A stretch of DNA of 64,000 nt from Rhodocyclales bacterium GT-UBC. Its GTDB lineage: Bacteria > Pseudomonadota > Gammaproteobacteria > Burkholderiales > Rhodocyclaceae. The stretch is from NCBI GenBank assembly GCA_003583745.1, contig QXPY01000010.1, positions 124,001-188,000 of the forward strand, read 5' to 3'. How positions within the stretch are numbered: position 1 is the stretch's first letter; every line of letters starts with the position of its first letter. Below are positions 1-42,139 of the stretch, piece after piece. The notes beneath the pieces were generated by a model. That model saw nothing but the letters and a program-made list of their open reading frames with translations. It did no database searches and had not been told where the DNA came from. Made by a program: the position numbers and the translations under genes.

Positions 1-1116
1 GCCGATCACCTGACGCATTTCTACCTGTTCTTCATGCCCGATTTCGCTCGCCCGGCCTATGCCGATCGGGCCTGGTTTCCGGATGTCGCGGCGCGCTTCA
101 TGGCCGTCAAGGGCAGTGCGGCGGCCGATGTGTTGCCGGCGCGCGCCAGCTTTCTGCGCCTGATGGGTTTTCTTGCCGGGCGCTGGCCGCATACGCTGGC
201 CATCCAGCCAGGGGGCAGCACGCGGGCGATCACGGCCGGCGAGCGCATCCGCCTGCTCGCCTTGCTGCGCGAATTCCGCAGTTTTCTTGAACGGCATTTG
301 TTTGGCGACAGCCTGGCCAGCCTGGCCGCGCTGGATTCGAAAGCTGCGCTGCTGGCCTGGGCGAAGGGCCGGCCGGGGGACTTTCCGAGTTTTCTGCGGG
401 CCGCGCAGGATCTGGGGCTCGACCGTATCGGCCGGGCCGAAGACCGCTTTCTTTCCTACGGCGCCTATGACCTGTTTCCCGCCGGTCGCTGGCAGGGCGG
501 ACTGCTGGGGCTGGATGCGGCGGACATCGTCGAAGATACCGAACACGCCTGGCTGCTCGATGGCATGCCACGTCACCCGGCCGATGGCGAAACCATCGTC
601 GCGGCCGACAAGCCGGCTGCCTATACCTGGTGCAAGGCGCCGCGCCTGGCCGAACAGCCGCATGAAGTCGGCGCCTTGGCGCGCCAGGTCATTGCCGGCC
701 GGCCGCTCCTGCTCGACATGGTGCAAGCCGACGGCGGCAGCGTGATGGCGCGCGTCGTCGCCCGGCTACTCGAACTGGCCCTGGTCGTTCCGGCCATGGA
801 GGCCTGGGTGCAGGCCTTGCGCCCGGGCGAACCGTTCTGCGCCGAAGGCGTGCTGCCCGATGAAGGCAGCGGCGTCGGCCTGGTCGAAGCCGCACGCGGC
901 AGCCTGGGGCACTGGCTGAGCATCCGGCGCGGCCACATCGAGCGTTACCAGATCATCGCCCCGACCACCTGGAACTTCTCGCCGCGCGACCGCAACGGCC
1001 TGCCCGGCCCGCTCGAACAAGCGCTGGTCGGCCTGCCCGCCGGCGAGGGCGCCCCACCGACCGTCCAGCACGTGGTGCGGTCGTTTGATCCGTGCATGGT
1101 GTGTACTGTGCATTAG
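1..1116 (+). CDS. hupV: Hydrogen-sensing [NiFe] hydrogenase large subunit, 3' part
   Basis: The frame is open from base 1, so the 5' end lies outside the window and only the last 371 codons are present. The C-terminus reads RSFDPCMVCTVH and then stops. DPCxxCxxH is the C-terminal pair of nickel-binding cysteines of [NiFe] hydrogenase large subunits. Catalytic hydrogenases carry a further 15 or so residues after this His, which a maturation protease removes. The lack of that tail is the hallmark of regulatory (HupV/HoxC) subunits, which bind H2 as a sensor with HupU/HoxB and signal to a HupT/HoxJ kinase. A kinase of that type lies at 40689. The last codons double as the left attachment site of the island. 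The family call is firm, and the sensor subtype rests on the missing extension. Confidence 0.85.
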   Translation, partial: ADHLTHFYLFFMPDFARPAYADRAWFPDVAARFMAVKGSAAADVLPARASFLRLMGFLAGRWPHTLAIQPGGSTRAITAGERIRLLALLREFRSFLERHLFGDSLASLAALDSKAALLAWAKGRPGDFPSFLRAAQDLGLDRIGRAEDRFLSYGAYDLFPAGRWQGGLLGLDAADIVEDTEHAWLLDGMPRHPADGETIVAADKPAAYTWCKAPRLAEQPHEVGALARQVIAGRPLLLDMVQADGGSVMARVVARLLELALVVPAMEAWVQALRPGEPFCAEGVLPDEGSGVGLVEAARGSLGHWLSIRRGHIERYQIIAPTTWNFSPRDRNGLPGPLEQALVGLPAGEGAPPTVQHVVRSFDPCMVCTVH

Positions 1117-1117
1117 C
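1095..1117 (+). repeat. Attachment site copy 1 (attL) in the hydrogenase gene's 3' end
   Basis: These 23 bases are identical to 28415-28437, and 20 of the first 22 match 30513-30534. All three copies encode MVCTVH-stop. The copy spans the last six codons and stop codon of the hydrogenase large subunit, so integration here leaves the protein intact. An integrase/excisionase pair starts about 160 bases to the right, which is the usual layout for an element end. The attachment-site role is inferred. Confidence 0.75.
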
Positions 1118-1273: not shown

Positions 1274-2377
1274 TCAGCCGGCGATCTTGGGTCGGAACCA
1301 TCCGTCCCGCTCGTCCTGGTAGAGTGCGGCCATCTTGACCGACTTGTGCCCCAGCAACGCCTGGGCGAACTCTTCGCCGTACTTGTCCTTGTAGAGCCTG
1401 GCCGACAGCGAGCGGATCTCGTGAATGGTCGGCGGATTGTCGCCGACTATGCCGACCTCCTCGCGGATCGCCGCAAACTCCTCGGCGATGGTGTGCTCGC
1501 GGATCTTGCTGCCGACCTTGGCGCGGCCGGCCTGCTTAATGTGGTGGACAAGGTACTGGCTGACCACGTTGCGCGTGCTGGCGATGGTCGCCTGCAGGCT
1601 GAAGCCGGCGATCTGCAGCTCAAGCGGGATGGCTACCTTGTGCCCGACCGCGTCGGTCTTCTTGTTCTTCTGCTGGACTACATTCAACCAGACATCCTGC
1701 ATGTCCTTGTAACGCATTTTGGCCAGGTCGCCCCGACGCTGGCCGGTCAGGATGGCCAACTCCAGGAAGTGCACCAGCCAGATTGGTCCCTTTTCCTTGG
1801 CCTTGGCGTGGATTGCCATGAACTGATCAAGCGAGAGTCGCTGCCGTTTTGTCTCGACACGTTCGGCCCTGGTGACTTCGACAGGATTGCGCTCGCACCA
1901 GCCGGCGGCGACCGCTTCGCGGAAAATGTCGAGGAGCAGCGAGCGCATCGCCTGGGCCATGCGCTCCTTGCCGTCGTAGCGCTTCAAGAAATCGGCGATG
2001 GTCCGCGTGGTCAATTCCTTGAGGATGGTTTCGCCGATCGCCTCGGCGATTGTGTTGCAGCGCTGCTTCATGTTGTCGCGCGTGGACTTGGCGATTTTCT
2101 CGTCGTCGAAGCGTTTGTCCAGGATGCCCTTGTAGGTCTCGAGCCAATCAAAAAGGGTCTCGGGCCGGCCGGCGATGCGATGCACCAAGCGCGGTTTTTC
2201 CAGGAGATCGAGGACAGTGAGGTTCGCTTCGTGCGCCTGGGCGAAGGCGGCCTGCCGATTGCTGCCGAGGCCGTACACTTTGCCGGTCACTGGGTGGCGC
2301 CAAACATAGGCCCCGCGGTTCGTATAGACGTTGAGCGGGAGCCCGGTGTTTCTTCGGCTACGCGGCCGTGGTGCCAT
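1274..2377 (-). CDS. int: Lambda-type tyrosine recombinase (island integrase)
   Basis: This 367-residue protein would integrate and excise the island. Residues 1-55 resemble the arm-DNA-binding domain of lambda/HK022-type integrases. The catalytic half carries the family residues: Arg in TGQRRGD (about 213), HEIR at 319-322, His in LLGHKS (344) and the nucleophilic Tyr at about 353 in ALYQD. It reads outward toward attachment copy 1, with a terminator after it. Its start overlaps the end of the excisionase gene by 20 bases, suggesting coupled expression. All catalytic residues are present, so it should be active. Confidence 0.93.
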   Translation of the reverse strand: MAPRPRSRRNTGLPLNVYTNRGAYVWRHPVTGKVYGLGSNRQAAFAQAHEANLTVLDLLEKPRLVHRIAGRPETLFDWLETYKGILDKRFDDEKIAKSTRDNMKQRCNTIAEAIGETILKELTTRTIADFLKRYDGKERMAQAMRSLLLDIFREAVAAGWCERNPVEVTRAERVETKRQRLSLDQFMAIHAKAKEKGPIWLVHFLELAILTGQRRGDLAKMRYKDMQDVWLNVVQQKNKKTDAVGHKVAIPLELQIAGFSLQATIASTRNVVSQYLVHHIKQAGRAKVGSKIREHTIAEEFAAIREEVGIVGDNPPTIHEIRSLSARLYKDKYGEEFAQALLGHKSVKMAALYQDERDGWFRPKIAG

Positions 2378-2618
2378 ACACTGCTCTCATGCGGGAGAGA
2401 ATCGAGCCGGTGCCGGAAGATATATATTTTGTGTCCGGCGATACAAACCAACACTTGCCATGCTGTTCGGCAGGCGGAAATAAACGTCCTTCGCGTGCCC
2501 AGCGGCGCAGGGTGCGCGGGTCGGGAGCATCATCACCGTACAGTGTACGAGCCCAATTTTCGAGTTTCATCCAGCGAGGCATAGTTTTCGGTTCATTAGC
2601 GTTGCGCCTGTTCTTCAT
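2358..2618 (-). CDS. xis: Excisionase (recombination directionality factor)
   Basis: This small basic protein of 86 residues contains MKLENWARTLYGDDAPDPRT followed by LRRWAREGRLFPPAEQHGKCW. That is the winged-helix pattern of lambda-type excisionases, which bend attachment-site DNA and favour excision. The frame is open to 2717, but the ATG at 2618 has a GGAG upstream and fits the family length better. A still later ATG at 2582 is possible. The gene precedes and overlaps the integrase gene, the usual xis-int order. The natural target could include the 11-bp repeats at 1143-1174. Confidence 0.82.
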   Translation of the reverse strand: MKNRRNANEPKTMPRWMKLENWARTLYGDDAPDPRTLRRWAREGRLFPPAEQHGKCWFVSPDTKYISSGTGSILSRMRAVYGTTAA

Positions 2619-3024
2619 GATGCCTAAAGCTCCATTGCATTTTTGAAATAGCCGAACATGTGGCGCTGCATCGATTGTTTTTCTGGGAGCTGTCGGGAAA
2701 CGCGAAATCTTCCCCATGTTTGTCTGGATACCGCCGTACGTCTTGTGCTGAGTGTCATATGGCTACCCTTGGACCAATTGAACTGTGAATGGCCCCGATT
2801 CTGGCCGGTAGTTATCGGCGGAGGAAGTCACAAATACAGCTCAAATTGGCCGTTTAGACGTATAAATGGACTTTCAGGCTGAAAAAATTTCGGATTCCGG
2901 TATGTTTTAAGAAATTTCCCTTGGAGTCGGGGTGGTCAGTTGAGGGCCTTGAATCAGCATTTACCGGATGCGGTTTCCATGAGCATGGGATAATGTGCCC
3001 CTGAATGGAAAAGCGCTTTTTTGA
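2619..3024. other. Intergenic region between xis and the glycosyltransferase genes
   Basis: About 400 bases, relatively AT-rich, between the divergent xis and glycosyltransferase genes. I see no convincing gene. It must hold the promoters in both directions, but no clear -35/-10 pair stands out. Confidence 0.5.
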
Positions 3025-7757: not shown

Positions 7758-8699
7758 TCATGCGCTCTCGATGGAGAGCTTCTGCACATGTGGCTTGAAG
7801 GCCCGCTCCAGCCGGATCATGGCATCGACCATGGCGGCATGCACCGCCTCGAACGTTGCCTCGTCGTCGCGGTATCCGCCGCCTTCGAGCAGCACGCGGA
7901 CGCGGCAGGCCCGCTTGTTGTCCAGCCGCTGCCAGTCCAGCTTACCGCCGAATGCAGCTTCGATCTCGTCCTTCTTGGCGTGCAGGGCGTCGAAAATCGC
8001 CTTGTTCTCGTCATCGCATTCCTTGCCGCGGTCGATGTAGATCTCGGCCGCCGCCTCGCGCTCCCAAACGACATAGTTGTAAGCTAGCCCGCTCTTGCCG
8101 GCGCCCGTGCCGACCCAATTCTGCTTACCGGGGGAGATACCGGAATGGAGCTTGGTCTTCGTCTTGGCGTAGGTCAGGAGTTTCGTCCAGAAGTTGCGCC
8201 GCAGATCGTAGCGCTCCGCGAATTCCTGCTTCGCCTTGCCGACCGCCTTGGTCGATTCGCTCGGGCCGACGATCAGCGTCAGGAGCGGCGCCGGAGCGGA
8301 GTTGCCGATCTGGATGGCTTCGAGCTTCAGGAGGTAGAAGCTTGCCGTCGACGCCTCGTTGAGCCAGGTGATGGCGGAGACATGCTCGGGGCGCGGATCG
8401 GAGACGATCCAGATGGCCGTCTTGGCTTCGAGGGCGACGAGGTAGGTGATGACCTTGCCGAGATGGTCATGGTTCGACTTTTCCAGCTGGTTCTCGATGA
8501 TGACCTTCGAGCCCGATTCGTCCTCGCAGACGATATCGACCGAGAAGTCGCCGGCCGCCTGCTCGCGCTCGGCGTTCGAGAGGGTGATGTCGAGGCAGTC
8601 GTTCAGGACATCGATGTTCTCTTCCAGCCAGCGCGTGAAGTCCAGCGCCTCATGCTTGAATGCGTCCCGGAGCGGGATGCGGGTGATTTTCTGTATCAT
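7758..8699 (-). CDS. DUF4268-type protein with a PD-(D/E)XK nuclease-like N-terminus
   Basis: This is a 313-residue protein. Residues 30-90 carry DFSVDIVCEDESGSKVIIEN followed by Q and a KSNHDHLGKVITYL helix. This D-x(n)-E-x-Q layout is typical of divergent restriction-endonuclease folds. The C-terminal part resembles DUF4268 (IYIDRGKECDDENKAIFDAL). The chosen start has GGGAG eight bases upstream; an upstream extension to 8750 lacks support. It lies 14 bases after the NERD-domain gene, so the two form an operon. A role in nucleic-acid cleavage or phage defence is inferred. Confidence 0.75.
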   Translation of the reverse strand: MIQKITRIPLRDAFKHEALDFTRWLEENIDVLNDCLDITLSNAEREQAAGDFSVDIVCEDESGSKVIIENQLEKSNHDHLGKVITYLVALEAKTAIWIVSDPRPEHVSAITWLNEASTASFYLLKLEAIQIGNSAPAPLLTLIVGPSESTKAVGKAKQEFAERYDLRRNFWTKLLTYAKTKTKLHSGISPGKQNWVGTGAGKSGLAYNYVVWEREAAAEIYIDRGKECDDENKAIFDALHAKKDEIEAAFGGKLDWQRLDNKRACRVRVLLEGGGYRDDEATFEAVHAAMVDAMIRLERAFKPHVQKLSIESA

Positions 8700-8713
8700 G
8701 CGTTCTCCCTTGC

Positions 8714-9691
8714 CTATGCCGCCGAGACGGTCTTCTGGCAGTCCATGCAATAGACGTTGCCGCCGAATTTCGGCTTGTTGAACCAGCAGAATTTCGCCAC
8801 GTTGTAGCCGACGGAGGTTCCGCAGGAATGGCAGACGAGCTTCTGCTTGGTCTTCTGCTCCTGCTCGGCAAGCTGCGCAGGTTCCAGCGTTGGCGCTGCG
8901 GCTTCCGCCTTGGGCGCTTCGGGAGCCGGCTCGGGCTTCGCCGCCGGCATCGCGGGCGGCTCCTTGGGCAGCCCGAACTTCGCCGTCCAGTCGAAGGCGA
9001 TGGGCTTGTGCAGCCTCGCGATGTCGCGGGCCAAGGCTTCGAGCGTGTCCTGCCCGATGATCTTCGCCATCATCAGCGGGTTGTTGCTCTGGTCGATGGC
9101 CTTGTCGATGTATTTGAAGACCTGATCGTTCTTGATGATCGCGTCCATGCCGTCAATCTTGGCCTTCGGGCGGCTGATGCGGGCGCCCTTGGAGACGAGG
9201 ACGAGGCTCTTCAGATCGGGCTTGATGGTGAAGCCGAGCCGCGTCGGCAGCTTGACGGCGCCGGAGTCGAAGAGCTTCCTCAAAATCAGGATGTGCTTGG
9301 CGTTCTGTTCGATGGGGGAAGGCACGCCGTAGGGCTTGCCGCCGAAGAAGGCGGCGAATTCGCCGTGCTCGTTGATGCCGATCCCCTCGGAGAAGTGCTT
9401 GCTCTCGCAAACCCAAATTTCCAGAAAACGGTTGATCAGCAGATGATCGATTTGGGCAACCAGCCCGCCATGCTCGATGCGCAGGTCGTGGATGGCCATC
9501 CAGTTCTTGGACTCGCCCCAATGGACCTTCATCTCGTAGGCGGCTTCTTCCTCGCCTCGGGCGCCGGCCTGGATGTTGCGGATTTCCTGCTCGATCCGCT
9601 TCTTCGCGTCGGCCTTACAGTCAGGGCGGGACAGCAGGGCTTGCAGTTCCCGAATCGCGGGCTTCTTGTCGTCGGCTTCCTTGATGATCAT
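8714..9691 (-). CDS. NERD-domain protein with C-terminal zinc ribbon
   Basis: This is a 325-residue protein. Residues 40-160 form a NERD (nuclease-related) domain, with GARGEEEAAYEM, then HGGLVAQIDHLLI and EIWVCESKHF. These give the E...D...ExK pattern of PD-(D/E)XK nucleases. A long Ala/Pro/Glu-rich linker (about 240-285) leads to a C-terminal zinc ribbon with CHSC and CMDC. The start is uncertain: this ATG has a poor ribosome site and an ATG at 9733 is possible. It is the first gene of a two-gene operon with the DUF4268 gene. Confidence 0.8.
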   Translation of the reverse strand: MIIKEADDKKPAIRELQALLSRPDCKADAKKRIEQEIRNIQAGARGEEEAAYEMKVHWGESKNWMAIHDLRIEHGGLVAQIDHLLINRFLEIWVCESKHFSEGIGINEHGEFAAFFGGKPYGVPSPIEQNAKHILILRKLFDSGAVKLPTRLGFTIKPDLKSLVLVSKGARISRPKAKIDGMDAIIKNDQVFKYIDKAIDQSNNPLMMAKIIGQDTLEALARDIARLHKPIAFDWTAKFGLPKEPPAMPAAKPEPAPEAPKAEAAAPTLEPAQLAEQEQKTKQKLVCHSCGTSVGYNVAKFCWFNKPKFGGNVYCMDCQKTVSAA

Positions 9692-9948
9692 CGTTTGAAC
9701 GTTGCGTATTGCATAAGCGACGAAGGCTAGCATGCACGGCACGTGCGGTCCAATGCCAACGGGTTGCCACGATGTTCGCTTCCGCATCGGGAATCATCCC
9801 ACGAAGGGGGGCACCGGAAACCCTGTTTCCAAATTTCAGCTGTTTTTGGCGAACTCAGGGTTATCTCAGTCCATTACTACGTCTAAGGGCGGGTTTTGGG
9901 CGGCATTTGGCTATTCCCTGGCCCAATCCCGGACATCACAATCTATAG

Positions 9949-10770
9949 ATGTTTTTTCAGGAAATACCGGTCGTATCGGACCTATCTCTATTTATGCGTG
10001 ATCGAACCATCATTCCAACCAACCTCATGGACTGGCCGCGCGTTGCACCCTTACTCCCGGAAGTGAAATTCATTTACTCCTCCGGATTCTGGGGGAGTCG
10101 TTATACCAACATGATTGGTGTGGCGGAAATTCCCCTACGGCCATTGGCCGCCAGCCTTGGTTTTGACCCATCCGCCCTACAGTCAGGAATTACAGTTCTT
10201 TGTCATGAAGAGCTGATTGTTGGCGACTGGGAAACATACGAATTTTTTATTTGTGACTGGTTCCGTTTTCACCGATTTAATGGTGCCGGTATTGCTATGG
10301 CGTTGCAGCAATTCTCCAAGATCAGATCGCCGGTAGTTCAGAAACTTGTCTCCAATGCTGCTCCGTGGATAACCGATAAGCCATTGATTCAATCAAAGCA
10401 AAGGGTTAGGGCCCCAACAGCAGAAAAAAAAGAAACTTCTACTTCTGCGGGGAAAATCCGTGATCGTCGTATAAGTGGGATTGTGACCTACTGGCCAACC
10501 GATTCCGAACGAGCAGCACGGATCGAAAAAATCTACACGGGTGAGCAGATTGCTCTCGCTGTTATAGCTGTAGAGAAGGACGGGAAAGAGCCTGTTCCCG
10601 GACTTGTTGAAAAAGCAATTGAGTCTCAAATCAAGGCCGAAGCTCGTAAGGCAGAAGCAGCCAAGTCCTCACCTCCGCAATGCGATCAAGCAACAGTTGC
10701 TCGTCGATCTGACCAGGAAATGGCAACTATCTGGCGTGCAATTGGATTGGAGCCACCTAAATGCAGCTAA
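9949..10770 (+). CDS. Unrecognised protein, possibly replication/helicase-loader-like
   Basis: This is a 273-residue protein I do not recognise. The N-terminal half (LPEVKFIYSSGFWGSRYTNM and GVAEIPLRPLAASLGFDPSA) looks like a compact winged-helix region. The C-terminal third is Lys/Ala-rich and probably helical (VEKAIESQIKAEARKAEAAK). An N-terminal DNA-binding part with a basic tail recalls phage replication proteins, but I cannot show this. Base composition is lower in GC than the backbone. Neither this ATG nor the one at 9994 has a good ribosome site. The 257 bases before it hold no gene I can support. Confidence 0.5.
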   Translation: MFFQEIPVVSDLSLFMRDRTIIPTNLMDWPRVAPLLPEVKFIYSSGFWGSRYTNMIGVAEIPLRPLAASLGFDPSALQSGITVLCHEELIVGDWETYEFFICDWFRFHRFNGAGIAMALQQFSKIRSPVVQKLVSNAAPWITDKPLIQSKQRVRAPTAEKKETSTSAGKIRDRRISGIVTYWPTDSERAARIEKIYTGEQIALAVIAVEKDGKEPVPGLVEKAIESQIKAEARKAEAAKSSPPQCDQATVARRSDQEMATIWRAIGLEPPKCS

Positions 10771-10918
10771 ATCCTTGGCTGTTAATGCTGCTCGTAGAAC
10801 TATCGCCGGCAAAAACCAGACATACATCACTTTTCCCTCTGGTGCTGGGATTTCATCGTATTTTAAAACCTGCTTTTTACCAGACCAAAGTTTTAGTGAT
10901 GGTCCAGGAGGGACAAGC

Positions 10919-11971
10919 ATGAGCCGAACGTCTCTTGCGGATCAGGTTCTGCCCAAGCGGTTCCGGGATGAACTCGATCGCATCCTGAATGAACACAACC
11001 AGAAGAACCATTCCGTGATTCGCGTTTTTCAGCGCGATAGCAGCCGTAAAACCCGGCGCGAACGGCGTGGCAATCTCCGGTTGATTTTTGCCGAGCTGCG
11101 CCAGCTTGGTTATCGGCTGGAAAGTCCGACGCATTTGAAGCCCAAGCACATTCAGGCGCTTTGCACCCATTGGCAGGCAAAGGGGCTCGCAACGAAAACG
11201 ATCGTCGGCCTGTTTTCAAATCTGCGTGCCTTTTGTAGATGGATCGGCAAGGACGGGATGGTCGAGGATATCGGCGTCTATGCCGGAGGCCGTGAGCATC
11301 TAGTACGGAAGACTGCGGCTACCGAAGATCTGTCCTGGGAGGCGTGCGGCGTTGACGTTGAGGCATTTATCGAAAATGCCAAGCAAATTGATCGCCGCCT
11401 TGGGGTAATCCTCGGGCTACAACGCTACTTCGGCCTGCGTGTAAAGGAATCACTAGAACTTCGTCCTTGGCGGGCAACTGCTTTGGGGAGCTCACATCTC
11501 TACATCACGGACGGAACCAAGGGAGGCAAACACCGCATGATCCCTATCCGTAGCGAACGCCAACGCAACATCCTTCATGCCGCCAAGGAAATTGTCGGTA
11601 ATCGGCTAACTGCCCAACTGCGTTGGGCTGACAAAACCTGGCGCCAGGCCCAAGGACATTTTTATTACCTGATGCGGAAATTGGGTGCGACGCATGAGCA
11701 GCTTGGTGTTTCACCGCATGGGCTCAGGCATGGCTTCCTGCAAGACGAATATGAGCATTACGCCGGTGTGCCAGCACCGGTGAAAGCGACGGGCGTTCTT
11801 CCGGCAGATCGGATGGAACACAAGCAAGCCATGCTTGCCGTCTCACTCCAGGCCGGCCATTACCGTGAATCAGCGACCGGGATGTATTGCGGCACCCTCG
11901 GACATCAACTTCGGCCAAAAGCCAATCCAGAAATAAACACCAACCTAAACGACGAGGATAAATTCGAATGA
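10919..11971 (+). CDS. Tyrosine recombinase, Integrase_1-like
   Basis: This 350-residue protein has a helical SAM-like core-binding region (about 30-140) and a catalytic domain with Arg in FGLRVKESLEL, Lys in GTKGGKHRM, HGLRHGF as the His-x-x-Arg box and Tyr in SATGMYCGTLG. It differs from the island integrase at 1274 and is not next to an attachment copy, so it probably serves another mobile unit. GGAGGGAC precedes the chosen ATG; an upstream in-frame extension to 10604 overlaps the previous gene and is unlikely. It shares ATGA with the next gene. Confidence 0.85.
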   Translation: MSRTSLADQVLPKRFRDELDRILNEHNQKNHSVIRVFQRDSSRKTRRERRGNLRLIFAELRQLGYRLESPTHLKPKHIQALCTHWQAKGLATKTIVGLFSNLRAFCRWIGKDGMVEDIGVYAGGREHLVRKTAATEDLSWEACGVDVEAFIENAKQIDRRLGVILGLQRYFGLRVKESLELRPWRATALGSSHLYITDGTKGGKHRMIPIRSERQRNILHAAKEIVGNRLTAQLRWADKTWRQAQGHFYYLMRKLGATHEQLGVSPHGLRHGFLQDEYEHYAGVPAPVKATGVLPADRMEHKQAMLAVSLQAGHYRESATGMYCGTLGHQLRPKANPEINTNLNDEDKFE

Positions 11972-12450
11972 AAAAACCTGTTCCAACCATCCCGACCAAA
12001 CAGGTCGATCTAGACAATATTCTTCCGCTGCGCGGAATGGAGCCCCCCTATTTTTTTCTTCAGGTCGACTGGCTGGCCTTGGCTTGTATTCGAAAGCCGT
12101 TGATCAAGTTCAGCTTCGACGAAAAATCCTCCGAGGACTGGCTGCTATATGACCAGATCGATATTTTGGCGGAAAACATGGATGTGGATTTCACCGATGC
12201 AGCGCACTGGGCGCTTCGCCAGGCTCTTGGGGAAAACTTTCAGTCGGCACGCGACATGTATGCAGGCATTACGCCATGGGATTTGGATATTCAATACGTT
12301 TGCCGGATCTTTTCTCTACAGCTCTGCAAATCCCATCGCCTGAAGGATGGCTATAGCCCGGAGAGATTGGATCAAGTCATCGAGGAGCTATTGGCGACAG
12401 ATGACGAGCTTCTGCTTGCTGCCAATCCCGGCAATTCTCTGACCTGCTAA
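11968..12450 (+). CDS. Small unrecognised protein coupled to the tyrosine recombinase
   Basis: An acidic protein of 160 residues with no motif I recognise. It starts within the stop codon of the recombinase gene (ATGA overlap), so it is almost certainly co-translated and may be a partner of the recombinase. There is no signal peptide or membrane segment. Confidence 0.6.
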   Translation: MKKPVPTIPTKQVDLDNILPLRGMEPPYFFLQVDWLALACIRKPLIKFSFDEKSSEDWLLYDQIDILAENMDVDFTDAAHWALRQALGENFQSARDMYAGITPWDLDIQYVCRIFSLQLCKSHRLKDGYSPERLDQVIEELLATDDELLLAANPGNSLTC

Positions 12451-12665
12451 TTGACATCCATTACGGGTGGTCAAAATCCAACCTGCACCATCCGTAATGG
12501 ATTGGCCATCGCGCTGTCCATAAGGGACTTCAGGAGATCTCGTGATGGAAACATCTAACCACCGTTTTCCGTTGCCGTTTATCGACATGGGAAAAAACAG
12601 AAAAACCTGCCGCATCTCGGTAGATTGAATTGCAAACGGGGTTTGTTTTTTCCAAGAGGAGCGAA

Positions 12666-13277
12666 ATGGCCATTTTCATCTACGTGCGGGTTTCAACGAA
12701 CGTGCAGGACACGCAAAATCAACTTCATGGCATCCGTGACTACTGCCAAGAGCGGGGAATCGTTCCGGACACGGTTGTCGAGGATACGGCGTCAGGCAGC
12801 ATCGATTGGCGATCCAGAAAAATCGGAGAACTGTTGTCCGGTGCGGACAAGGGTGATGTCTTGCTCGTAGCTGAGGTCAGCCGATTAGCTCGTAGCACTT
12901 TGCAGGTACTGGAAATCCTGAAGTTTTCTTCTGAGCGCCAGGTGTCCGTCGTCATCGTCAAGAACGGACTGACATTCGACAACTCGATGCAGTCGCGAAT
13001 TACGGCAACAATCTTGGGCTTGGCTGCAGAAATCGAGCGCGATTTCATCTCGATGCGGACACGGGAGGCATTGGCGAAGCGCAAGGCATCCGGAAAACAG
13101 CTTGGCCGTCCTCAAGGCGCGCTGGCCAAGAGGTACAAGCTCGATGAAATGCGCTCGGAAATCGAGCGCTACCAGAAGCTGGGTATCAATCAGACAGCGA
13201 TCGCCAAGCTCGTTGGTGTCAGCCGCCCAACGCTTCGTACCTGGCTGGGCAGGCAGCAGGTCACCCAACCAGGGTAG
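12666..13277 (+). CDS. Serine recombinase of the resolvase/invertase family
   Basis: This is a 203-residue protein. MAIFIYVRVSTNVQDTQNQ carries the N-terminal YxRVS motif with the catalytic Ser at about residue 9. VAEVSRLARSTLQVLEIL matches the second conserved block, and a C-terminal helix-turn-helix (INQTAIAKLVGVSRPTLRTW) binds DNA. The length is normal for resolvases. AAGAGGAGCG precedes the ATG and excludes the longer reading frame from 12630. It lies between a tyrosine recombinase and a KfrA-like gene in the same direction. Confidence 0.9.
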   Translation: MAIFIYVRVSTNVQDTQNQLHGIRDYCQERGIVPDTVVEDTASGSIDWRSRKIGELLSGADKGDVLLVAEVSRLARSTLQVLEILKFSSERQVSVVIVKNGLTFDNSMQSRITATILGLAAEIERDFISMRTREALAKRKASGKQLGRPQGALAKRYKLDEMRSEIERYQKLGINQTAIAKLVGVSRPTLRTWLGRQQVTQPG

Positions 13278-13348
13278 CGCCCAACGCTCTCAGCAACCCA
13301 TACATAACCATTCGTATCGTACGTTTCATATCAATCAGAAAGAAAATC

Positions 13349-14233
13349 ATGCCGCGTGAAGCCACTATCACCTACGATCAGGTTGTTCGCTATGCTGAAG
13401 CTATCAAGGCCGAGGGCGGGAAACCGACGCCACGCCAGATTCGAGACCGGCATGGATCGGGAAGCTTCGGCACTATCCACAAACTTTTCCAGCAATGGGA
13501 GAGCACACAAGCTTTGGCCATCGAGGCTGCGCTGAGTTTGCCGCCGTCCGTGCAACGGGCAATCCTTGAGTTTGTCCGTCACGAACTTTCTGTTGGGCGT
13601 GCCGATTTGGAGGAACGGTTGTGCCAAGCAACCACCTCTGCCGAAGATTTGGCCACAGAAAATGAGCGTCAGGCCGCGCTGATCGACGAACAGTTGGTGA
13701 CGATTGAAAGTTTGCGGGGAGAGAGGGCAGCATTGGCAGGCAGGTTGGCCGAAATTGAAACTGCCATCGGCACGCATCGCGAAGATGCCGTCCGTGAGCG
13801 CCTGGCCGCCGAAGCTGCTCGAACCGAAGTGGCCAAGCTCATGCTCCGTCTTGAAGGCTTGCCCCGATTGGAGGCTGAACTCGCTGAACTTCGCAAGGAA
13901 TATCAGCTAATTGACCGGAGCCGCCAGGAGATCGAAAAAGAGCTTGCCGTCTCCGGCGCAGCATACAAATCGCTGGAACTATCCAAAGGAGAAGCGGTTG
14001 CAAGTCTTCAGGGCCGCCTGGCCGAGGCGCAGGAAGAGCTACGTGCAGTCTCCGCGCAGTTGCAGGCAGCACAAACGGAAAGGTTCAAGGCTGCTGCAGA
14101 ACTGGTTTCCGCTCACGCGATGCGTGCCGAGGAAGGCCAGCGCGTGGCCGAGAAAATCGGCGTATTGGAAGGGTCTCTAGCCATCCTACAGCAACAAGCG
14201 ATTCCAGCTTCCCTTCAGCACAATCCTTCTTGA
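13349..14233 (+). CDS. KfrA-like DNA-binding coiled-coil protein
   Basis: This is a 294-residue protein. Residues 1-90 match the KfrA N-terminal DNA-binding domain (ITYDQVVRYAEAIKAEGGKP, then RQIRDRHGSGSFGTIHKLF). Residues 95-280 are almost pure coiled coil rich in Ala/Glu/Leu. Such proteins regulate plasmid replication genes or, as TnpT in Tn4651-type transposons, assist a tyrosine recombinase in cointegrate resolution. Here it ends a recombinase cassette, so the second role is attractive. The 3' end overlaps the convergent nuclease gene by 19 bases. Confidence 0.8.
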   Translation: MPREATITYDQVVRYAEAIKAEGGKPTPRQIRDRHGSGSFGTIHKLFQQWESTQALAIEAALSLPPSVQRAILEFVRHELSVGRADLEERLCQATTSAEDLATENERQAALIDEQLVTIESLRGERAALAGRLAEIETAIGTHREDAVRERLAAEAARTEVAKLMLRLEGLPRLEAELAELRKEYQLIDRSRQEIEKELAVSGAAYKSLELSKGEAVASLQGRLAEAQEELRAVSAQLQAAQTERFKAAAELVSAHAMRAEEGQRVAEKIGVLEGSLAILQQQAIPASLQHNPS

Positions 14234-16143
14234 GATGGTTGAGAAAAAACGCGATCGAGCAGTTGATCGGTGGACGAAGCGCTGTATCGATCTGCCAGTA
14301 CGCTGCGTAGCTTGAGCAGGCGGGCATTGGCGGTGTCCACAAGGGAGCCGAAGGTCGCGGCACGAACACGACCGTACTTTCGGTTTCCGTCTCCTACCTC
14401 TTTTTCGCGGGCAACTCCGGCGGCCACCTTCTGCCCAACGACCCATGCGGAAATGAATGGCGTGCCTGACATTGCTCCGGACGAGGCGATGTCCTGCACA
14501 TAGCCATCGGCCTGATTGACTTCCTTGCGAGTTAGCTCGAAGCCGCCTTTCTTCAGTTCAATCACCAGTACGTGCTGCAATTGAGTAAGTGCCGGATCGA
14601 TCGGATCGAACGACTCGATACCCGTCATCTGCCAGGTTGTCTTTTCAGGTAAAACCACGATATCCGGGCGGTTACGTTCGTTGATGAACTGGGCTTCCTC
14701 GCTCTTGAACAACTCTCGGGCCACGGTTTGCAGCGTCACATTCGAGCAATACTCCTGCGACTCGAACTCAGGGCCGAACAGCCACCGTGAGCGGAGGATC
14801 AGCGGGTGAAGTGTATGCAATTCATCGGTCTGCGGGTCGTCGGCCAGGCGCCGAATGGTTTCGATCACGCTCAGCCGACTATCGATTTCGTCCAGGACAC
14901 GCAGCGCGTCCTTGACGGTCCATTCGGTCAGCAGACGATCCAGCCCGTCGACGTCATCGTGCGGTAGCCCTGAGAGCTTGTGCAGTAATGCCGCTCCGCT
15001 TTTGGTTTTTTCAAGGTGAATGACTGCCTTGACGGCCGTGGCCAGAAAATCCGGTGAAATTGTTGGATGTGTCTGGGCAATGACCTTGGTGAACTCGGCA
15101 ACTTCCAGCCTCGCGCCTTGGCCCAGGGTAGCCAGTTCATTCCGGTTTTGGGTCAACGCATCCTCTGATGCAGCCTCGACAACTTCCGCAGCCAACTCCT
15201 GCGCAACTTTGCCAATATGGTCAGCGGTTGCACGGTACAGGTCACGCACGGCATCGGTTGTGCGAAACCCGGTCCAGTCCTGTTCTACCTCGGTCTCGTA
15301 GCCTTGGGTGTCAACGATCACCTTGTAGCGGCGGGCAAAGCGAGTCCGTCCATCGAAATTAGCGATTTGACCGACTGCCCAAGATGGTGATCCCACCAGG
15401 CGGCGTTGTACCCAAAAGGCAATGCCCTGATGCACGGATGAATGGTTTAGGCGTGTCGAGTCGATGACGATGACGGTCGCGCTTCGGCCCGCGCCGAGAA
15501 CCAGTGTTTCCTCGCTGACCCTACCCTCGATTTCAGTGAACGAACGTTGTACGCCATTGACCCGAATTTCGAACTCGGGATCGTGCACAAAGCGCGCCGC
15601 CAACACGGTCAGAATCTCATCGGCATCGGGCAATTTGCGGGCAACGTTTACCGCCAGGCGGGTGCCGCTTCCCGTCTTCTGTCCGAGCTTTTCGTTCCGC
15701 AACACAAATGGGCTAGGGCCAGATTCAGTGCCGACCACGAAGGTGGCCAGCGAGCCCTCGCGCCAGGTCTGCACTTCGTATTCGTCGGCAAAGCAAAGCA
15801 GCCCGTGTCGGCCGACACCGTTACGACCATAGGCTTTGCGAGGGTGAACCGACTTGCCCGCCGGAAACTCGACGTTGGCTCCCTGATGCTTCAATCGATC
15901 ATAGCGCAGTGTCATCCAGCGCCTCTTGAATTGCGAAGGTGTCATGCCATGCCCGTTATCCGTCACGGTCAGCGTGCCCCCGATTTCGCCGGGCAAAATC
16001 AGGTCGACACGGGTGGCGCCGGCATCCCAGGCATTAGCAACCAATTCCGTCAGAGCGACTTGTGGTACATGCGCTACCTGTCCGAGTTCGCGCAACAGGT
16101 AGTCATCCTCGAACAGCGAATTCTGCAGGGGCTGGTCAGGCAT
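14215..16143 (-). CDS. GHKL ATPase fused to a PD-(D/E)XK nuclease domain
   Basis: This is a 642-residue protein. The N-terminal third is a GHKL (Hsp90/MutL/MORC-type) ATPase: LTELVANAWDAGATRV (N box with E and N), VTDNGHGMT (DxGxG) and YGRNGVGRHG (glycine lid). The C-terminal region (about 505-560) has RPDIVVLPEK followed by VLVIELKKGGFEL and QADGY, a PD-(D/E)XK active-site pattern. Its start overlaps the hsdS stop by 8 bases, so it is translated as the last gene of the type I restriction operon. MORC-like GHKL ATPases are known in prokaryotic R-M neighbourhoods. An added restriction or abortive function is inferred. Confidence 0.82.
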   Translation of the reverse strand: MPDQPLQNSLFEDDYLLRELGQVAHVPQVALTELVANAWDAGATRVDLILPGEIGGTLTVTDNGHGMTPSQFKRRWMTLRYDRLKHQGANVEFPAGKSVHPRKAYGRNGVGRHGLLCFADEYEVQTWREGSLATFVVGTESGPSPFVLRNEKLGQKTGSGTRLAVNVARKLPDADEILTVLAARFVHDPEFEIRVNGVQRSFTEIEGRVSEETLVLGAGRSATVIVIDSTRLNHSSVHQGIAFWVQRRLVGSPSWAVGQIANFDGRTRFARRYKVIVDTQGYETEVEQDWTGFRTTDAVRDLYRATADHIGKVAQELAAEVVEAASEDALTQNRNELATLGQGARLEVAEFTKVIAQTHPTISPDFLATAVKAVIHLEKTKSGAALLHKLSGLPHDDVDGLDRLLTEWTVKDALRVLDEIDSRLSVIETIRRLADDPQTDELHTLHPLILRSRWLFGPEFESQEYCSNVTLQTVARELFKSEEAQFINERNRPDIVVLPEKTTWQMTGIESFDPIDPALTQLQHVLVIELKKGGFELTRKEVNQADGYVQDIASSGAMSGTPFISAWVVGQKVAAGVAREKEVGDGNRKYGRVRAATFGSLVDTANARLLKLRSVLADRYSASSTDQLLDRVFSQPSQEGLC

Positions 16144-17320
16144 GTGCGGAGGCTCCTTCAGAAAATACTCGCTCCAGCGTTGCTGGCAGTAATGCGGTGT
16201 TGGCGCTGCGGATGCCGGCGTGTTTGTCTTTTAGGGCAATGTAACGATCAAATAGTGCATCGATACGTGAAATCTCGTTCGGAGGCGGCAGCCAAATCGG
16301 TCTCGCAAGGATATGCTCCGGCTGAATTCTAAGCCTGCGGTCGCCGACGCCTTTTGTTGACGCACGCATTCGATGCCAATCGTTCTCTGTCATGAACAGC
16401 GCCATCAGGAATTTTTCTGATGCTAGATCTGTATTGACGTCAAAGGTGGGAAATTCGCTGGAGACGTAGCAACCATCAAATTCATCAGGCACCAGAGCAT
16501 ATGCTCCTTCGAAGGCGAACAAGCGACTGTAGATAAACTGACCGGATCTTATTTTGTATAAGGTTTTGGCGCTGGTAGTTGCGCCTTCGATCGGAGCTTT
16601 CCCAAAGACACCTCGCGCGTAGCTCAAAATGCCCACATTCGGGTAAGAGCTCGAAATATCGACTGACTCAGGGCTCAGCGCCAGTCTAGCTATGTCGGCG
16701 ATAGTTCGCTGTTGCCAACCTGATGCCTGTCGTTGTTCGTCACTGATATCGGGGCGCTTCGCCATCGTTACCAGCAGACGCAGGGAGTCATGCTCGATAG
16801 TATCCAGATGTGCTTCGACCTGCCGGGTCTTCTCTGCCAGCGCGTCGAGGCGGGCGACAAGAGCTTGTTGTTCGGTCAGTGGCGGGAGTGCAATCTTCTG
16901 ATCGAGAAATCGATCCTCCTTGATGCGTACCCGGTTGGTGGTGCCTTCGCTGGCTGCCTTGCAAAGCTCCACAAAAGGCGACGACCGAACCAGCCAGCCC
17001 ATGAATGCTGCATCGCACAGGTCCGGATCACGAAACTCGAACGAAGGGAAGTCATTGCTGACAATGGCGCCGTCAAGTTCCGGCGGTACCAAGCCAATCG
17101 CACCGTTGCGAGCGTCGATCTTGGACAGTATCAATTGGTTGGCGCGCACAACACGGCGTACCGATACAACATCGCTGCCCGAGACTTTGCCCCGGCTGAT
17201 GACCCCTTTGCCCCATAGCTTGATGGTGACTTCGTGGTACGTAGTTGCCGGATCGATTACTGCGGCTTCATCGGAACGTCGGAGCAATTCACCCAAGGCG
17301 ATTCTGGGCCATGCCTTCAT
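16136..17320 (-). CDS. hsdS: Type I restriction-modification specificity subunit
   Basis: This is a 394-residue protein. Two target-recognition domains (about 1-145 and 200-340) are each followed by a conserved helix: PPLTEQQALVARLDALAEKT at about 149-168 and PPPNEISRIDALFDRYIALK near 345-365. Each domain reads half of a bipartite target, and the helices set the spacing. It would assemble with HsdM and HsdR. The start overlaps the preceding small gene by 4 bases and the stop overlaps the GHKL gene by 8, so the operon is tightly coupled. Confidence 0.9.
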   Translation of the reverse strand: MKAWPRIALGELLRRSDEAAVIDPATTYHEVTIKLWGKGVISRGKVSGSDVVSVRRVVRANQLILSKIDARNGAIGLVPPELDGAIVSNDFPSFEFRDPDLCDAAFMGWLVRSSPFVELCKAASEGTTNRVRIKEDRFLDQKIALPPLTEQQALVARLDALAEKTRQVEAHLDTIEHDSLRLLVTMAKRPDISDEQRQASGWQQRTIADIARLALSPESVDISSSYPNVGILSYARGVFGKAPIEGATTSAKTLYKIRSGQFIYSRLFAFEGAYALVPDEFDGCYVSSEFPTFDVNTDLASEKFLMALFMTENDWHRMRASTKGVGDRRLRIQPEHILARPIWLPPPNEISRIDALFDRYIALKDKHAGIRSANTALLPATLERVFSEGASAHA

Positions 17321-17595
17321 TTGCTGCCCTCCCCATCGCCGTCGCGCTCGATCCGCCGCGTTTCCAGTTCGCGTCGCGTCCTATTCAACTCTTCGGCCAG
17401 CAGTTTTTCATCCGGCAGCACGGTCTGGTATGCGGTGGCCGGCACCTTGTTGGGCAGGCCTTCCAATTCATATTGGGCTTCGGCCGCGCCTTTTTCGGTA
17501 CAGAGGATCAGGCCTACGGGCGGGTTTTCACCTGGGTTCATCCAGTGCGTGTGGGTGGCCTGGTGAGGCAGGGCCGGCGTGCTGCAGTCGGTCAT
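17317..17595 (-). CDS. C-terminal fragment of a DUF1016 (YhcG-type) nuclease protein
   Basis: This is a 92-residue protein. Residues 20-85 (NPPVGLILCTEKGAAEAQYE, then TAYQTVLPDEKLLAEEL) match the C-terminal tail of DUF1016/YhcG proteins. Those have an upstream PD-(D/E)XK nuclease core, absent here. It overlaps hsdM by 4 bases and hsdS by 4, a layout that suggests it is still translated. Full DUF1016 genes often sit within type I R-M loci. It is either a decaying remnant or a retained small protein. Confidence 0.75.
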   Translation of the reverse strand: MTDCSTPALPHQATHTHWMNPGENPPVGLILCTEKGAAEAQYELEGLPNKVPATAYQTVLPDEKLLAEELNRTRRELETRRIERDGDGEGSK

Positions 17596-19436
17596 GCCTG
17601 GACCTCGGCCACCAAGGCTTCGATCTCGCCGAGCAGGCGCATGACCTCGGCTTCGTGGCTGCGCATGGCGGCGATCAAATCCTTCGGGTCGGCATGTTCC
17701 AGCCCGGCCTTGGCGTTGGGGTTTTTCAGGTCAAGATTGAAGATCGGCCAGTACAGTGCATCGCCCTCGGCTTGCGCCGATTTGGCGGCTAGCTCATGGG
17801 CGGCTTGCTCGCTCTTGAGCATCTTCAAGCGGTCTTGCAACTCGGCCTTTTCTCCATTGGCGGCGGCCTGGATGGCCTGCTCCAATTCCCGAATGAGCTT
17901 GCCCTGAGCGATGGTGGCATTGCGTTCATTTTCTGCTCGCTGCCAGTGCGGCGTGGCCGCTTCGATGGCGGTGGCACGTTTGGTGGCGAAGTCCACCTTC
18001 CAGGCCTGCGGGCATTTCTCTCCTTCTTGGCGGTCCTTCCACCAGGCGAGGACTGGCCCGAACTCTTCGAACTGCAGAGGCGCAGTCTTGCTGTATTTCT
18101 TGCGCCCTTCGGGCAGCGGTAGTTCGTAGTACCAGATGGTGTCGGTGGGGCCGCCACGTTCGAAGAACAGCAGGTTGGCTGGGATGTCGGTGTAAGGCGC
18201 GAACACGCCTTGCGGCAGGCGAACGATGGTGTGCAGGCGGAACTCCTTGAGCATCTCTTCCTTGATGACGGCGCTGATACCATCGCCAAATAGGGTTCCG
18301 TTGGGGACGACCACGGAGGCACGGCCTCCGCGTATGGCCGGTTTGCTACCGGTTACTGGGGCGCCCGCCACGCGCAGTTTACGCATGATGTATTGCAGGA
18401 AGAGCAGGGCGGTTTCCGCTGTCTGCATGTTGGGCGGGAAGTTGGCCTTGATGCCGACTTCTTCTTCGCCGCCGAAGGGCGGGTTGGTGAGGATGACATC
18501 CACACGTTCGCTGTGGCCGATTTCGTTGATTCGGCGTTCCAGCGTATTGCCATAGGCGATTTGCGGTGCTTCCAGTCCGTGCAGAAGCAGGTTCATCTGG
18601 GCCAGCATGTAGGGCAGCGGCTTGGCTTCCTGGCCGTAGAGAGTGTCGCGTTGCAGTGTTTTTCGCTGGTCAGGGGTGGCAACCTGTGGTGCGATGTGGT
18701 CGTAGGCTTCTACCAAAAAGCCGCCGGTGCCGCAGGCGGGGTCGAGCACAGTTTCGCCCAAGTGCGGGTCGGTGACCTGCACCATGAAGCGCACGACCGG
18801 GCGCGGGGTATAGAACTCGCCGGCATCGCCCGCTGCATCGCGCATTTCGCGCAGCATCGATTCGTACAGATGCGACAGGGTGTGGATTTCTTCGCTGGCA
18901 CTGAAATGAATGCCGTTGATTTTGTTGATGATGTCGCGTAGCAGGTAGCCGCTGACCATACGGTTCTGCACGCCTTTGAAGACGTTGGCGATGACTTCGC
19001 GCTGGCTGCCTTTTTCGCCCTCGCCAGCCAGGCCGCGCAGGTAAGCGAACAGGCCCTTGCCGGTGCTGCCATCGGCGCGTACGGTGAACTCCTGTCCGAT
19101 GAAGGCGAGCAGTTCGTCGCCGGTAATGCCGTCCTCGCGCGCAGCCCAGTCGCGCCAGCGGTAGGGCGCTTCGATGATCGGCTGGTAGTGCTTGCCGTCG
19201 AGTTCGGCTTCTTCCTCGTGCATGATTTCTAGGTCGTCGAGAAACTTGAGGAACATGACCCAGGTGAGCAGGGGCAGGCGGTCTACGTCGCCGTTGAGGC
19301 CTTTGTCCTTGCGCAGTATCTTGCGCGCGGAGCCAATCAGCGCGGAAAGGTTTTCTCGGGTGGTGAGGGGGGCTTTGGCTTTACGCGGTGCGCGGGATTT
19401 TTTTTCGGTTGTACTGGTGGATGCTGCTTTGACCAT
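17592..19436 (-). CDS. hsdM: Type I restriction-modification methyltransferase subunit
   Basis: This 614-residue protein methylates adenine N6 in the specificity target. It has an N-terminal helical HsdM region, DPACGTGGFLVEAYD as the SAM-binding motif I (about 228), and NPPFGG as the catalytic N/DPPF motif IV (about 316). The C-terminal part is Ala/Glu-rich and helical. It lies 15 bases downstream of hsdR and overlaps the DUF1016 fragment. The length is at the long end for HsdM. Confidence 0.93.
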   Translation of the reverse strand: MVKAASTSTTEKKSRAPRKAKAPLTTRENLSALIGSARKILRKDKGLNGDVDRLPLLTWVMFLKFLDDLEIMHEEEAELDGKHYQPIIEAPYRWRDWAAREDGITGDELLAFIGQEFTVRADGSTGKGLFAYLRGLAGEGEKGSQREVIANVFKGVQNRMVSGYLLRDIINKINGIHFSASEEIHTLSHLYESMLREMRDAAGDAGEFYTPRPVVRFMVQVTDPHLGETVLDPACGTGGFLVEAYDHIAPQVATPDQRKTLQRDTLYGQEAKPLPYMLAQMNLLLHGLEAPQIAYGNTLERRINEIGHSERVDVILTNPPFGGEEEVGIKANFPPNMQTAETALLFLQYIMRKLRVAGAPVTGSKPAIRGGRASVVVPNGTLFGDGISAVIKEEMLKEFRLHTIVRLPQGVFAPYTDIPANLLFFERGGPTDTIWYYELPLPEGRKKYSKTAPLQFEEFGPVLAWWKDRQEGEKCPQAWKVDFATKRATAIEAATPHWQRAENERNATIAQGKLIRELEQAIQAAANGEKAELQDRLKMLKSEQAAHELAAKSAQAEGDALYWPIFNLDLKNPNAKAGLEHADPKDLIAAMRSHEAEVMRLLGEIEALVAEVQA

Positions 19437-19451
19437 CGGGTTGGACTTTCT

Positions 19452-26932: not shown

Positions 26933-26951
26933 ATTACGTTGAATTATTTTT
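26933..26951. repeat. 19-bp direct repeat, copy A, at the 3' end of the ATPase gene
   Basis: This copy, ATTACGTTG followed by AATTATTTTT, is identical to 28167-28185. It overlaps the ATPase stop codon. The two copies lie 1234 bases apart and bracket the gene. Confidence 0.8.
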
Positions 26952-28155
26952 CAGTTCGTAATTCCGAACGACTAGCAGATTGTTCTGCAAGGGCCAGATT
27001 TGGTGCTTCGGGATACATCTGCCTCAAATAGTAATCCCGAAGGAGTTCATCATCGAAGGCATAGCTTCCGCGAGCGGACTGCCAGACCAATTCCCTTACC
27101 TGTAGCGCTTTGATTGCGCCCTGTATCGTAGAACTTTTCGGCTCCGATCCAAGCACCTTTTGATAAGCCTCCATGGCCTCGGCTCCGTAAGGTTCGTAAT
27201 TCGGCGTGAGACGGGCGATGGCATCCAATACCGCTTTCTGGGGCGGTGTCAGGCGCGCATAGGAATTTGAGAATTCATCCCAGGCAGCCTGCTGCAATTT
27301 TGAGGCACCTGTGGTGACCATTTCCGCGAGGCCATCCGGCCCCAGGCAATTGGCAACCGCCTCCGAAACGGCCGCTCTGAACTTTTCGGGGCGGCGTCCA
27401 ACCAGTTCGAAGGCCTTTTTCATGGCGTCCAGTGGGAATTGGTGTGCGGTGTTGAACTGTTGGTTGAAGTCTTTCGCGTATGCTTCTACGAACTTGTCGT
27501 CGAGAAGCGGGAAACGCGTGATTTCGGCGCCATAGAAGGCTTGTTTCCGGTTTGCGACCATGAACGTCAGTTTGTCCCTGCTGGATCCTGTCATCACGAG
27601 AAGCAACCGTATTCCCTTCCCGGCTTCTTGGTTGAGTTCGTCGCGCGCGGCTTTGAGCGCAAAGAGGGCTTTATCCCCTTCTGGCGTCGTCAGGGCGTGC
27701 TGTGCTTCGTCGATGACCAGCATGATCGGTTTCAGCAATTTCTCCCAAAGCTTTTTGAGTGCTGCACCGATGGTGATTCCGCCTTGGCTCTTGCCGTCGC
27801 CGATGTCGATCGTTGTGCCGGCGGCCCCCACTTTGGAGATTCCTATCGCCCGCAATGCCCGTTTGGCCACCGGAGCGTGTTTGTCGAGCTCGGCAGCAAT
27901 AGCTTCCGCTATGAGTTCGGCAGGGTTGCGGGTCTTGTCTGCCCAGAGGTCGACGTAGATCGGAAGCCAATCCAGGTTTTCCGCTTCGGGAACGAGGTCT
28001 TGGCGGAGAAAGGTCGATTTTCCCGTCCGCCGCGGGGCCGCGAGAAACAGGCCGCTTGTTGCGTTGTTGACAGGGCTACGGCCCGAGAGAATTCGGCAAT
28101 ATTCCTCGGCCAGTTCCTTGCGGTGGTAGATGAATTGCGAGTTCAGGATGGTCAT
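26944..28155 (-). CDS. AAA/STAND-like ATPase with C-terminal winged helix
   Basis: This is a 403-residue protein. FLAAPRRTGKSTFLRQDL is the Walker A motif (about 37-54) and KPIMLVIDEAQHAL the Walker B (about 141-154), followed by a sensor-like LLLVMTGSSRDKL. The C-terminal 100 residues look like a winged helix (LTPPQKAVLDAIARLTPNYE). It resembles ATPases of the AAA/STAND group that act as switches in defence or DNA transactions. GGGAG precedes the ATG. It stands alone, flanked by 19-bp direct repeats, just before attachment copy 2. Confidence 0.75.
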   Translation of the reverse strand: MTILNSQFIYHRKELAEEYCRILSGRSPVNNATSGLFLAAPRRTGKSTFLRQDLVPEAENLDWLPIYVDLWADKTRNPAELIAEAIAAELDKHAPVAKRALRAIGISKVGAAGTTIDIGDGKSQGGITIGAALKKLWEKLLKPIMLVIDEAQHALTTPEGDKALFALKAARDELNQEAGKGIRLLLVMTGSSRDKLTFMVANRKQAFYGAEITRFPLLDDKFVEAYAKDFNQQFNTAHQFPLDAMKKAFELVGRRPEKFRAAVSEAVANCLGPDGLAEMVTTGASKLQQAAWDEFSNSYARLTPPQKAVLDAIARLTPNYEPYGAEAMEAYQKVLGSEPKSSTIQGAIKALQVRELVWQSARGSYAFDDELLRDYYLRQMYPEAPNLALAEQSASRSELRTEK

Positions 28156-29228: not shown

Positions 29229-29231
29229 CGA

Positions 29232-33992: not shown

Positions 33993-34130
33993 CCTTGCTC
34001 CCTGCGTGGTGTGGGCGAGGACTCCGCCGGGGAGGGGGCCCCGGCAATCTATTACTAAAGTTAGCAATAAACCGTTCGCAGGTAAATTCGTATATTGCCT
34101 AGTTCTGCCGGAAACGAGCCGCTTTCATGT

Positions 34131-35608: not shown

Positions 35609-35609
35609 T

Positions 35610-37125: not shown

Positions 37126-37128
37126 GCG

Positions 37129-42132: not shown

Positions 42133-42139
42133 GCGTGCC

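Follow-up and report, generated by a model that had tools for sequence, protein, structure and literature searches.

Does the 3′ end of a hydrogenase gene serve as a chromosomal attachment site for integrative elements, and what becomes of the gene when the site is occupied? Most known integration sites are in tRNA genes, in conserved protein genes or between genes. In the window, by which we mean the whole stretch of 64,000 nucleotides analysed, a tyrosine integrase gene lies close behind a [NiFe] hydrogenase large-subunit gene, and a tRNA or tmRNA as insertion target was discarded, none being found there. We consider it highly probable (about 0.9) that a group of lambda-type tyrosine integrases uses the 3′ end of this H2-sensing-type hydrogenase gene as its attachment site in the chromosome, that the gene is restored on insertion and that repeated use of the site stacks elements.

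The hydrogenase gene end and its core repeats

The first 1,116 bases of the window (1-1116) encode the C-terminal 371 residues of a large subunit of a [NiFe] hydrogenase (PF00374). In the ORF translation the stop codon directly follows the final His of the CxxCxxH motif, with zero residues beyond it. On the upstream side of the gene the genome carries hypD, hypE, a HoxX-like gene whose product combines a formyl-transferase domain with an enoyl-hydratase domain, a sigma-54 response regulator and the hydrogenase small subunit. This gene order (hyp, hoxX-like, response regulator and small-subunit neighbours) and the C-terminus at CxxCxxH fit what we take to be the H2-sensing HoxBC/HupUV type and its defining features. 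The gene end and the copies of the core are:

1-1116, plus strand: 3′ part of a [NiFe] hydrogenase large-subunit gene (hoxC/hupV type; PF00374, E 2.8e-51), ending in FDPCMVCTVH-stop
1095-1117, plus strand: attL, core over the last hydrogenase codons, direct repeat
28415-28437, plus strand: middle core, attR of island A and left site of element B, exact copy of 1095-1117
30513-30534, plus strand: outer core, attR of element B, probably displaced host codons, with two synonymous differences from attL; in the related genome G073 this core is identical to the unoccupied site of G086

The sequence CATGGTGTGTACTGTGCATTAGC at 1095-1117 is thus repeated exactly and in the same direction at 28415-28437, and its first 22 bases recur at 30513-30534 with the two synonymous changes. 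In the whole 4.68-Mb genome the core pattern was matched three times (1095, 28415 and 30513) and nowhere else. In the 923,661 bases behind the hydrogenase gene of 57 genomes, 67 forward and 0 reverse matches to the core were counted; 200 permuted core patterns gave no matches in these bases, and the reversed pattern gave 0 matches in 60 genomes. The imbalance of 67 to 0, together with the lack of any match to the permuted patterns, rules out chance as the source of the repeats. The first-pass annotation had placed an attachment core in the last hydrogenase codons, over the nickel-ligand motif, and had proposed that the integrated copy restores MVCTVH-stop. Both proposals held: the direct repeats stand at 1095, 28415 and 30513, relatives reuse the site, and the frame reaches its normal stop when the site is occupied, leaving the gene whole. 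The element in the window has a tyrosine integrase gene adjoining one end and repeats at both ends, one of them inside an intact host gene.

The gene end was then surveyed in the genus. Among 76 same-genus genomes the hydrogenase search matched 57; as G001 came without the 3′ end and G006 with the 3′ end only, 57 gene ends were examined. Two or more cores in one direction were present in 10 of these (G000, which is the window's genome, G082, G077, G068, G073, G065, G083, G081, G062 and G093), nine by the exact pattern and G065 with one mismatch. Three more genomes (G033, G084 and G011) carry integrase remnants with no second core in the DNA examined, and in G033 a second core lies on another contig. 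Since the stretches examined reached up to 15 kb for most genomes, and less where contigs end, this occupancy count is a lower bound. The remaining 44 genomes have one core only; in one of them, G005, a 55-base stretch resembles the left end of the G068 element. When the 76 genomes were searched for the integrase, 7 of them yielded 8 matches in all. Six of these matches lie at the hydrogenase end, namely the window's own and five relatives (75, 65, 50, 47 and 46% identity), the integrases of G033 and G073 being incomplete. The other two matches (39 and 37%) are not at the hydrogenase end, and one of them lies behind uvrB, a gene that we named by reading its translation.

Island A, the decayed element B and short segments in relatives

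The three cores of the window bound two stretches of DNA, with the following features:

1118-28414: island A, with the exact 23-base repeat at both bounds; over 179 bases its right end agrees at 93% with that of the G081 mini-island
1274-2377, minus strand: lambda-type tyrosine integrase of island A, 3′ end towards the hydrogenase gene (PF00589, PF09003, PF22022; PHROG integrase families)
2358-2717, minus strand: excisionase-like gene (PF07825, E 3.3e-07; phrog_629)
7758-9787, minus strand: DUF4268 gene (PADLOC candidate PDC-S11) and NERD-domain gene, by domain and PADLOC matches
16136-21851, minus strand: type I restriction-modification genes (specificity, methylase and restriction subunits)
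26944-28155, minus strand: AAA-type ATPase gene beside the right end of island A (AAA_22 just below the cut-off)
28438-30512: element B, a short element lacking a complete integrase gene, whose left end resembles that of the G077 element
28608-30308, minus strand: two genes of element B (206 and 358 aa), each 93% identical to its counterpart in the pair of the G093 mini-island

One island ending near 30535 had been proposed from the first look at the sequence, and this proposal had to be given up in favour of island A followed by element B. Behind the middle core, bases 28445-28588 are 85% identical to the left end of the G077 element, integrase C-terminus included, and integrase residues 335-363 can still be read in B at about 28505-28591. 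Before the middle core, the DNA resembles the right end of the 1.6-kb segment of G081. An exact repeat followed by a left end with integrase C-terminal codons indicates that 1118-30534 is made of two elements in tandem. Were 1118-30534 instead a single 29.4-kb island, with the middle repeat an internal duplication, the host-type wobble bases of the outer core would be those expected of a first-comer's true right end; but the middle copy is exact, it is trailed by integrase C-terminal codons and preceded by a right end known from another genome, and in G093 the homologues of the two B genes are flanked by cores as a unit of their own. On the matches to G077, G081 and G093 and the integrase remnant, we rejected the single island as very unlikely. 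Judged from its sequence, then, island A is in tandem with a decayed element B, and B is probably the older of the two, which would also give the order of insertion. The second gene of B has a weak IrrE/M78 match below the cut-off and the first has no match.

Such arrangements have a precedent in the ICE/IME literature, where CIMEs are described as decayed elements that keep attL and attR and are joined to an incoming element (PMC5704250). Element B likewise keeps both att sites (28415 and 30513), has lost its integrase gene save for the C-terminal remnant and stands in tandem with island A. It differs from CIMEs in that no conjugation genes were identified among the proteins scanned and in that six short segments occur at one site, with recurring toxin-antitoxin-like or ATPase genes.

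Besides the genes listed above, the cargo of island A includes glycosyltransferase genes; no structural phage genes were found among its proteins scanned with Pfam. Its AAA-type ATPase is 97% identical to the protein of the sole long ORF of the G081 mini-island. Three consecutive plus-strand genes at 9949-12450 of the window possibly form a nested recombinase unit: the middle one encodes a second, unrelated tyrosine recombinase (Integrase_1, PF12835) and the outer two match no Pfam family. A serine resolvase gene and a KfrA_N gene follow at 12630-14233, and the G082 element has a very similar resolvase ORF at 8357-9013 of its oriented stretch.

Besides island A there are four full elements, of 7.3-16.4 kb. 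Right ends are of two types, one found in island A, G082 and G081 and the other in the remaining elements, and the two types go with two integrase types. The G073 element carries a P2 gpA-like replication gene (PF05840; phrog_91). HipA-like genes, 76-82% identical to one another, lie at the right ends of G077, G065 and G083 (HipA_C was scanned in G083); PIN_3 and HTH_17 are present in G062, with relatives at 91-95% at the right end of G073. AAA_22 was detected at the right end of G081 at the cut-off and in island A just below it. The gene pair of G093, as in B, has a weak IrrE/M78 match below the cut-off, and the right-end pair of G068 matched no Pfam family.

Six short segments (B, G065, G083, G081, G062 and G093) span 1.6-2.4 kb between cores, and each has kept both cores and one right-end-type gene or pair. 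Among the matches listed, remnants of integrase coding sequence are still recognisable in B and G065, and a DNA match reveals one in G081; none were seen in the G062 segment. These segments could be mobile cassettes moved in trans by the integrases of full elements, rather than leftovers of such elements. Like units are indeed found with different left ends (HipA-like genes are common to G065 and G083, and the two-gene unit is common to the window and G093), and all 6 of 6 keep both cores and have conserved right ends. However, the useless integrase codons in B, G065 and G081 are what an internal deletion would leave, and the cargo equals the right-end genes of the full elements in G077, G073 and island A, so that we hold the cassette explanation to be rather unlikely. 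The short islands may persist because of their toxin-antitoxin-like cargo.

Empty sites, codon replacement and the exchange point

The DNA to the right of the outer core was aligned with the DNA behind the hydrogenase stop of single-core relatives. For six of the ten two-core genomes (G077, G068, G073, G065, G062 and G093) an uninterrupted junction was recovered in this way, the G093 alignment starting only from base 57; among the relatives compared, G000 (the window), G082, G083 and G081 gave none. The first-pass annotation had named the failure to find any strain with a continuous junction from the hydrogenase gene to 30535 as an outcome that would count against it. That outcome applies to the window itself (0 of the other 56 genomes) and not to the six related islands; with no counterpart of the genes at 30535-39100 at this place in the relatives compared, the window's own empty junction could not be demonstrated.

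The clearest pair is occupied G073 and empty G086. Outside the element they agree at 157 of 160 bases before the core and at 59 of 60 after attR, and on the element sides at 14/60 and 23/60. The attR core of G073 equals the empty core of G086, and its attL core differs at positions 9 and 12, both changes being synonymous. G065 and G067 repeat this pattern with one further change in attR, and the cores of G062 and G093 place the exchange less neatly than those of G073 and G065. The attL differences at positions 9 and 12 imply that everything from the codon of the second Cys onwards comes from the element and that the exchange takes place before position 9, within CATGGTGTG. Single-core genomes have either T (19 genomes) or C (25 genomes) at this position, so the base alone is no marker of an element. 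The six empty junctions and the codon replacement in the G073/G086 pair bear out the earlier proposal that elements insert into the nickel-motif codons and restore the gene.

A repeat made of the coding sequence of a conserved gene could also stem from duplication of the gene end, by homologous recombination or conversion between hydrogenase copies with the integrase as a bystander. In the occupied and empty pairs, however, homology stops at the core on both sides; moreover the repeat is only about 22 bases long, its far copies are not preceded by hydrogenase sequence, and one integrase group is found at the site in two classes. We therefore rejected this explanation, whose probability we consider close to nil.

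The following mechanism, that of site-specific integration, would account for these observations. The integrase would recombine a circular element with the chromosome, the exchange falling in a stretch of about nine bases (CATGGTGTG). The element's own Cys-Thr-Val-His-stop codons, with other wobble bases, would replace those of the host, so that the nickel-binding C-terminus is encoded anew and the gene is whole, and the displaced host codons would mark the far end of the element. Repeated use of the site would then stack elements, as suggested by island A in tandem with the probably older, decayed B. At the level of sequence comparison, the repeats, the empty sites in relatives, the codon replacement and the repeated use of the site by one integrase group are established. 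The integrase of island A is probably the enzyme that catalyses insertion, and the elements presumably still move.

Host range, genomic setting and relation to known systems

A profile search of genome contigs with a single integrase found no relative, and a search with four aligned integrases found at least five loci. Three of them were already in the genus survey (Dechloromonas sp. CZR5, Azonexus hydrophilus DSM 23864 and a betaproteobacterial MAG); the others include a Magnetospirillum MAG, in which the integrase gene follows the hydrogenase gene, and a Phaeospirillum MAG, in which it follows a second core. In the alphaproteobacterial family of the Magnetospirillum MAG, 5 of 55 genomes gave 7 integrase matches: four behind the hydrogenase gene (in G880 at 1.1 kb), two at a second core in the same stretch and one truncated with no core nearby. 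In the alphaproteobacterial DNA examined, only G835 and G880 have a second core. The hydrogenase end at the occupied alphaproteobacterial site of G845 (L210) reads CMSCTVH, not CMVCTVH. Another contig of the Phaeospirillum MAG (G835:C204, L205) has a core with one mismatch followed by apparent integrase C-terminal sequence.

An integrase of the same group was also found near the left end of a 46-kb IMG/VR record (G837; L203, L223, L253) with tailed-phage head and tail genes. The record has one exact core near its right end, which is not preceded by hydrogenase codons, the hydrogenase side being outside the record, and its integrase adjoins that of G845 in the tree (100/99). The hydrogenase-site integrases fall into two parts of this tree; the constraint to one clade gave p-AU 0.367, which is compatible with one or two origins.

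Wider samples were searched with loci taken with about 1.5 kb of flank and, among the matches listed, at most five first-look candidates scored per genome. No further hydrogenase site within the flanks was found in 399 genomes of the order (E up to 1e-50) or in 398 genomes of the phylum (E up to 1e-60). A search of 385 genomes sampled from the alphaproteobacterial class (E up to 1e-60) recovered the genome of the query and no other; these wide samples are sparse, the last one missing even known relatives of the query's family. The target pattern was matched in 27 of the 398 phylum genomes, more than once only in that of the window; the 26 other genomes match once each, counted by pattern and not by hydrogenase identity, and one of these matches ends in TGG with no stop. 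None of 65 viral integrase loci has a hydrogenase gene in its flank, and integrase matches in phage and plasmid records are nearly all below 60% identity, two plasmid records lying at 60-80%. More distant integrases of the family (L036, L041 and L194, L196, L200) lie behind uvrB and icd, as named by reading translations, which suggests that the family often changes between protein-gene ends. Of the claim that this motif offers a target in many hosts, what stands is one betaproteobacterial genus and one alphaproteobacterial family; the sampled searches beyond them yielded no further case.

In the window, the elements lie between the hydrogenase gene and a nickel-related region:

40250-42949, plus strand: nikR, PAS histidine kinase and NicO nickel-transporter genes; in G023 and G015 this region begins 10-22 bases behind the hydrogenase gene

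In these two genomes nikR starts about 10 (G023) and 22 (G015) bases behind the hydrogenase gene and is followed by the PAS histidine kinase gene; in G015 the match to the window continues through the nickel-transporter gene. Of the 57 genomes surveyed for this gap, 15 have no nikR in reach, and in the 40 others with nikR in reach it measures 1.7-39.1 kb, the largest being that of the window. Gaps of up to 11.7 kb in single-core genomes indicate that the interval is a hot spot of which the islands at the core are only a part. Between the outer core and the conserved nikR region, the window has at 30651-39100 genes that include one for a CHASE-PAS-GGDEF-EAL protein; the genes at 30535-39100 have no counterpart at the same place in the relatives compared. 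One could go further and regard the H2-sensor gene end as a dedicated and long-lived integration hub that, in two proteobacterial classes, is shared by defence islands, tailed phages and small elements carrying a phage-type replication gene. Occupancy and excision would then alter the coupling of hydrogen sensing to nickel supply and hydrogenase expression, because the elements push nikR and the sensor kinase from about 20 bases to 39 kb away from the sensor. We regard this extension as speculative and improbable.

Protein-gene sites with restoration, tandem accretion and CIMEs are already known (PMC12884075, PMC5704250, PMC8978831, PMC4057263). The restored protein-gene sites include yicC (PMC8978831) and bacA (PMC4057263). 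Islands and prophages of the icd/yicC/bacA type, with tyrosine integrases at the 3′ ends of protein genes, resemble the present elements in having the integrase beside the restored end and a short far repeat. They differ in their target, which here is a dispensable metabolic sensor and not a core housekeeping gene, with the core over metal-ligand codons. The hupL element (XisC) of heterocyst-forming cyanobacteria, described in PMC4874684, is a recombinase-bearing element in a hydrogenase large-subunit gene that it interrupts and leaves during development. In the present elements restoration of the gene is immediate, and the last codons of another hydrogenase type form the site. The contrast with hupL elements, which interrupt and do not restore, had been drawn beforehand and agrees with the intact frame in the window and in occupied relatives; a developmental element of the hupL type was ruled out, since the reading frame runs to its normal stop when occupied. 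For Shewanella putrefaciens CN-32, PMC8978831 describes a composite island, an island within an island, stabilised by HipAB. The HipA-like genes found here stand at the right ends of G077, G065 and G083, not in the window, and a role in maintenance could be proposed for them only by analogy.

In the literature searched we found no described element at this hydrogenase gene end, as had been supposed from the outset; island databases may list such insertions without comment. The integrase, the restoration of the gene end, accretion and decay are classical and the known range is modest; the target is apparently new and the codon-level evidence unusually clear. The use of a dispensable metabolic sensor as attachment site in two bacterial classes implies that a constrained metal-ligand motif can be a stable landing pad outside the core genome, and it predicts where islands may be sought in H2-sensing bacteria. 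With the matched occupied and empty pairs the exchange point can be mapped, and it becomes testable whether decayed islands owe their preservation to toxin-antitoxin-like genes. These integrases might also serve to place DNA behind a hydrogenase gene without breaking it.
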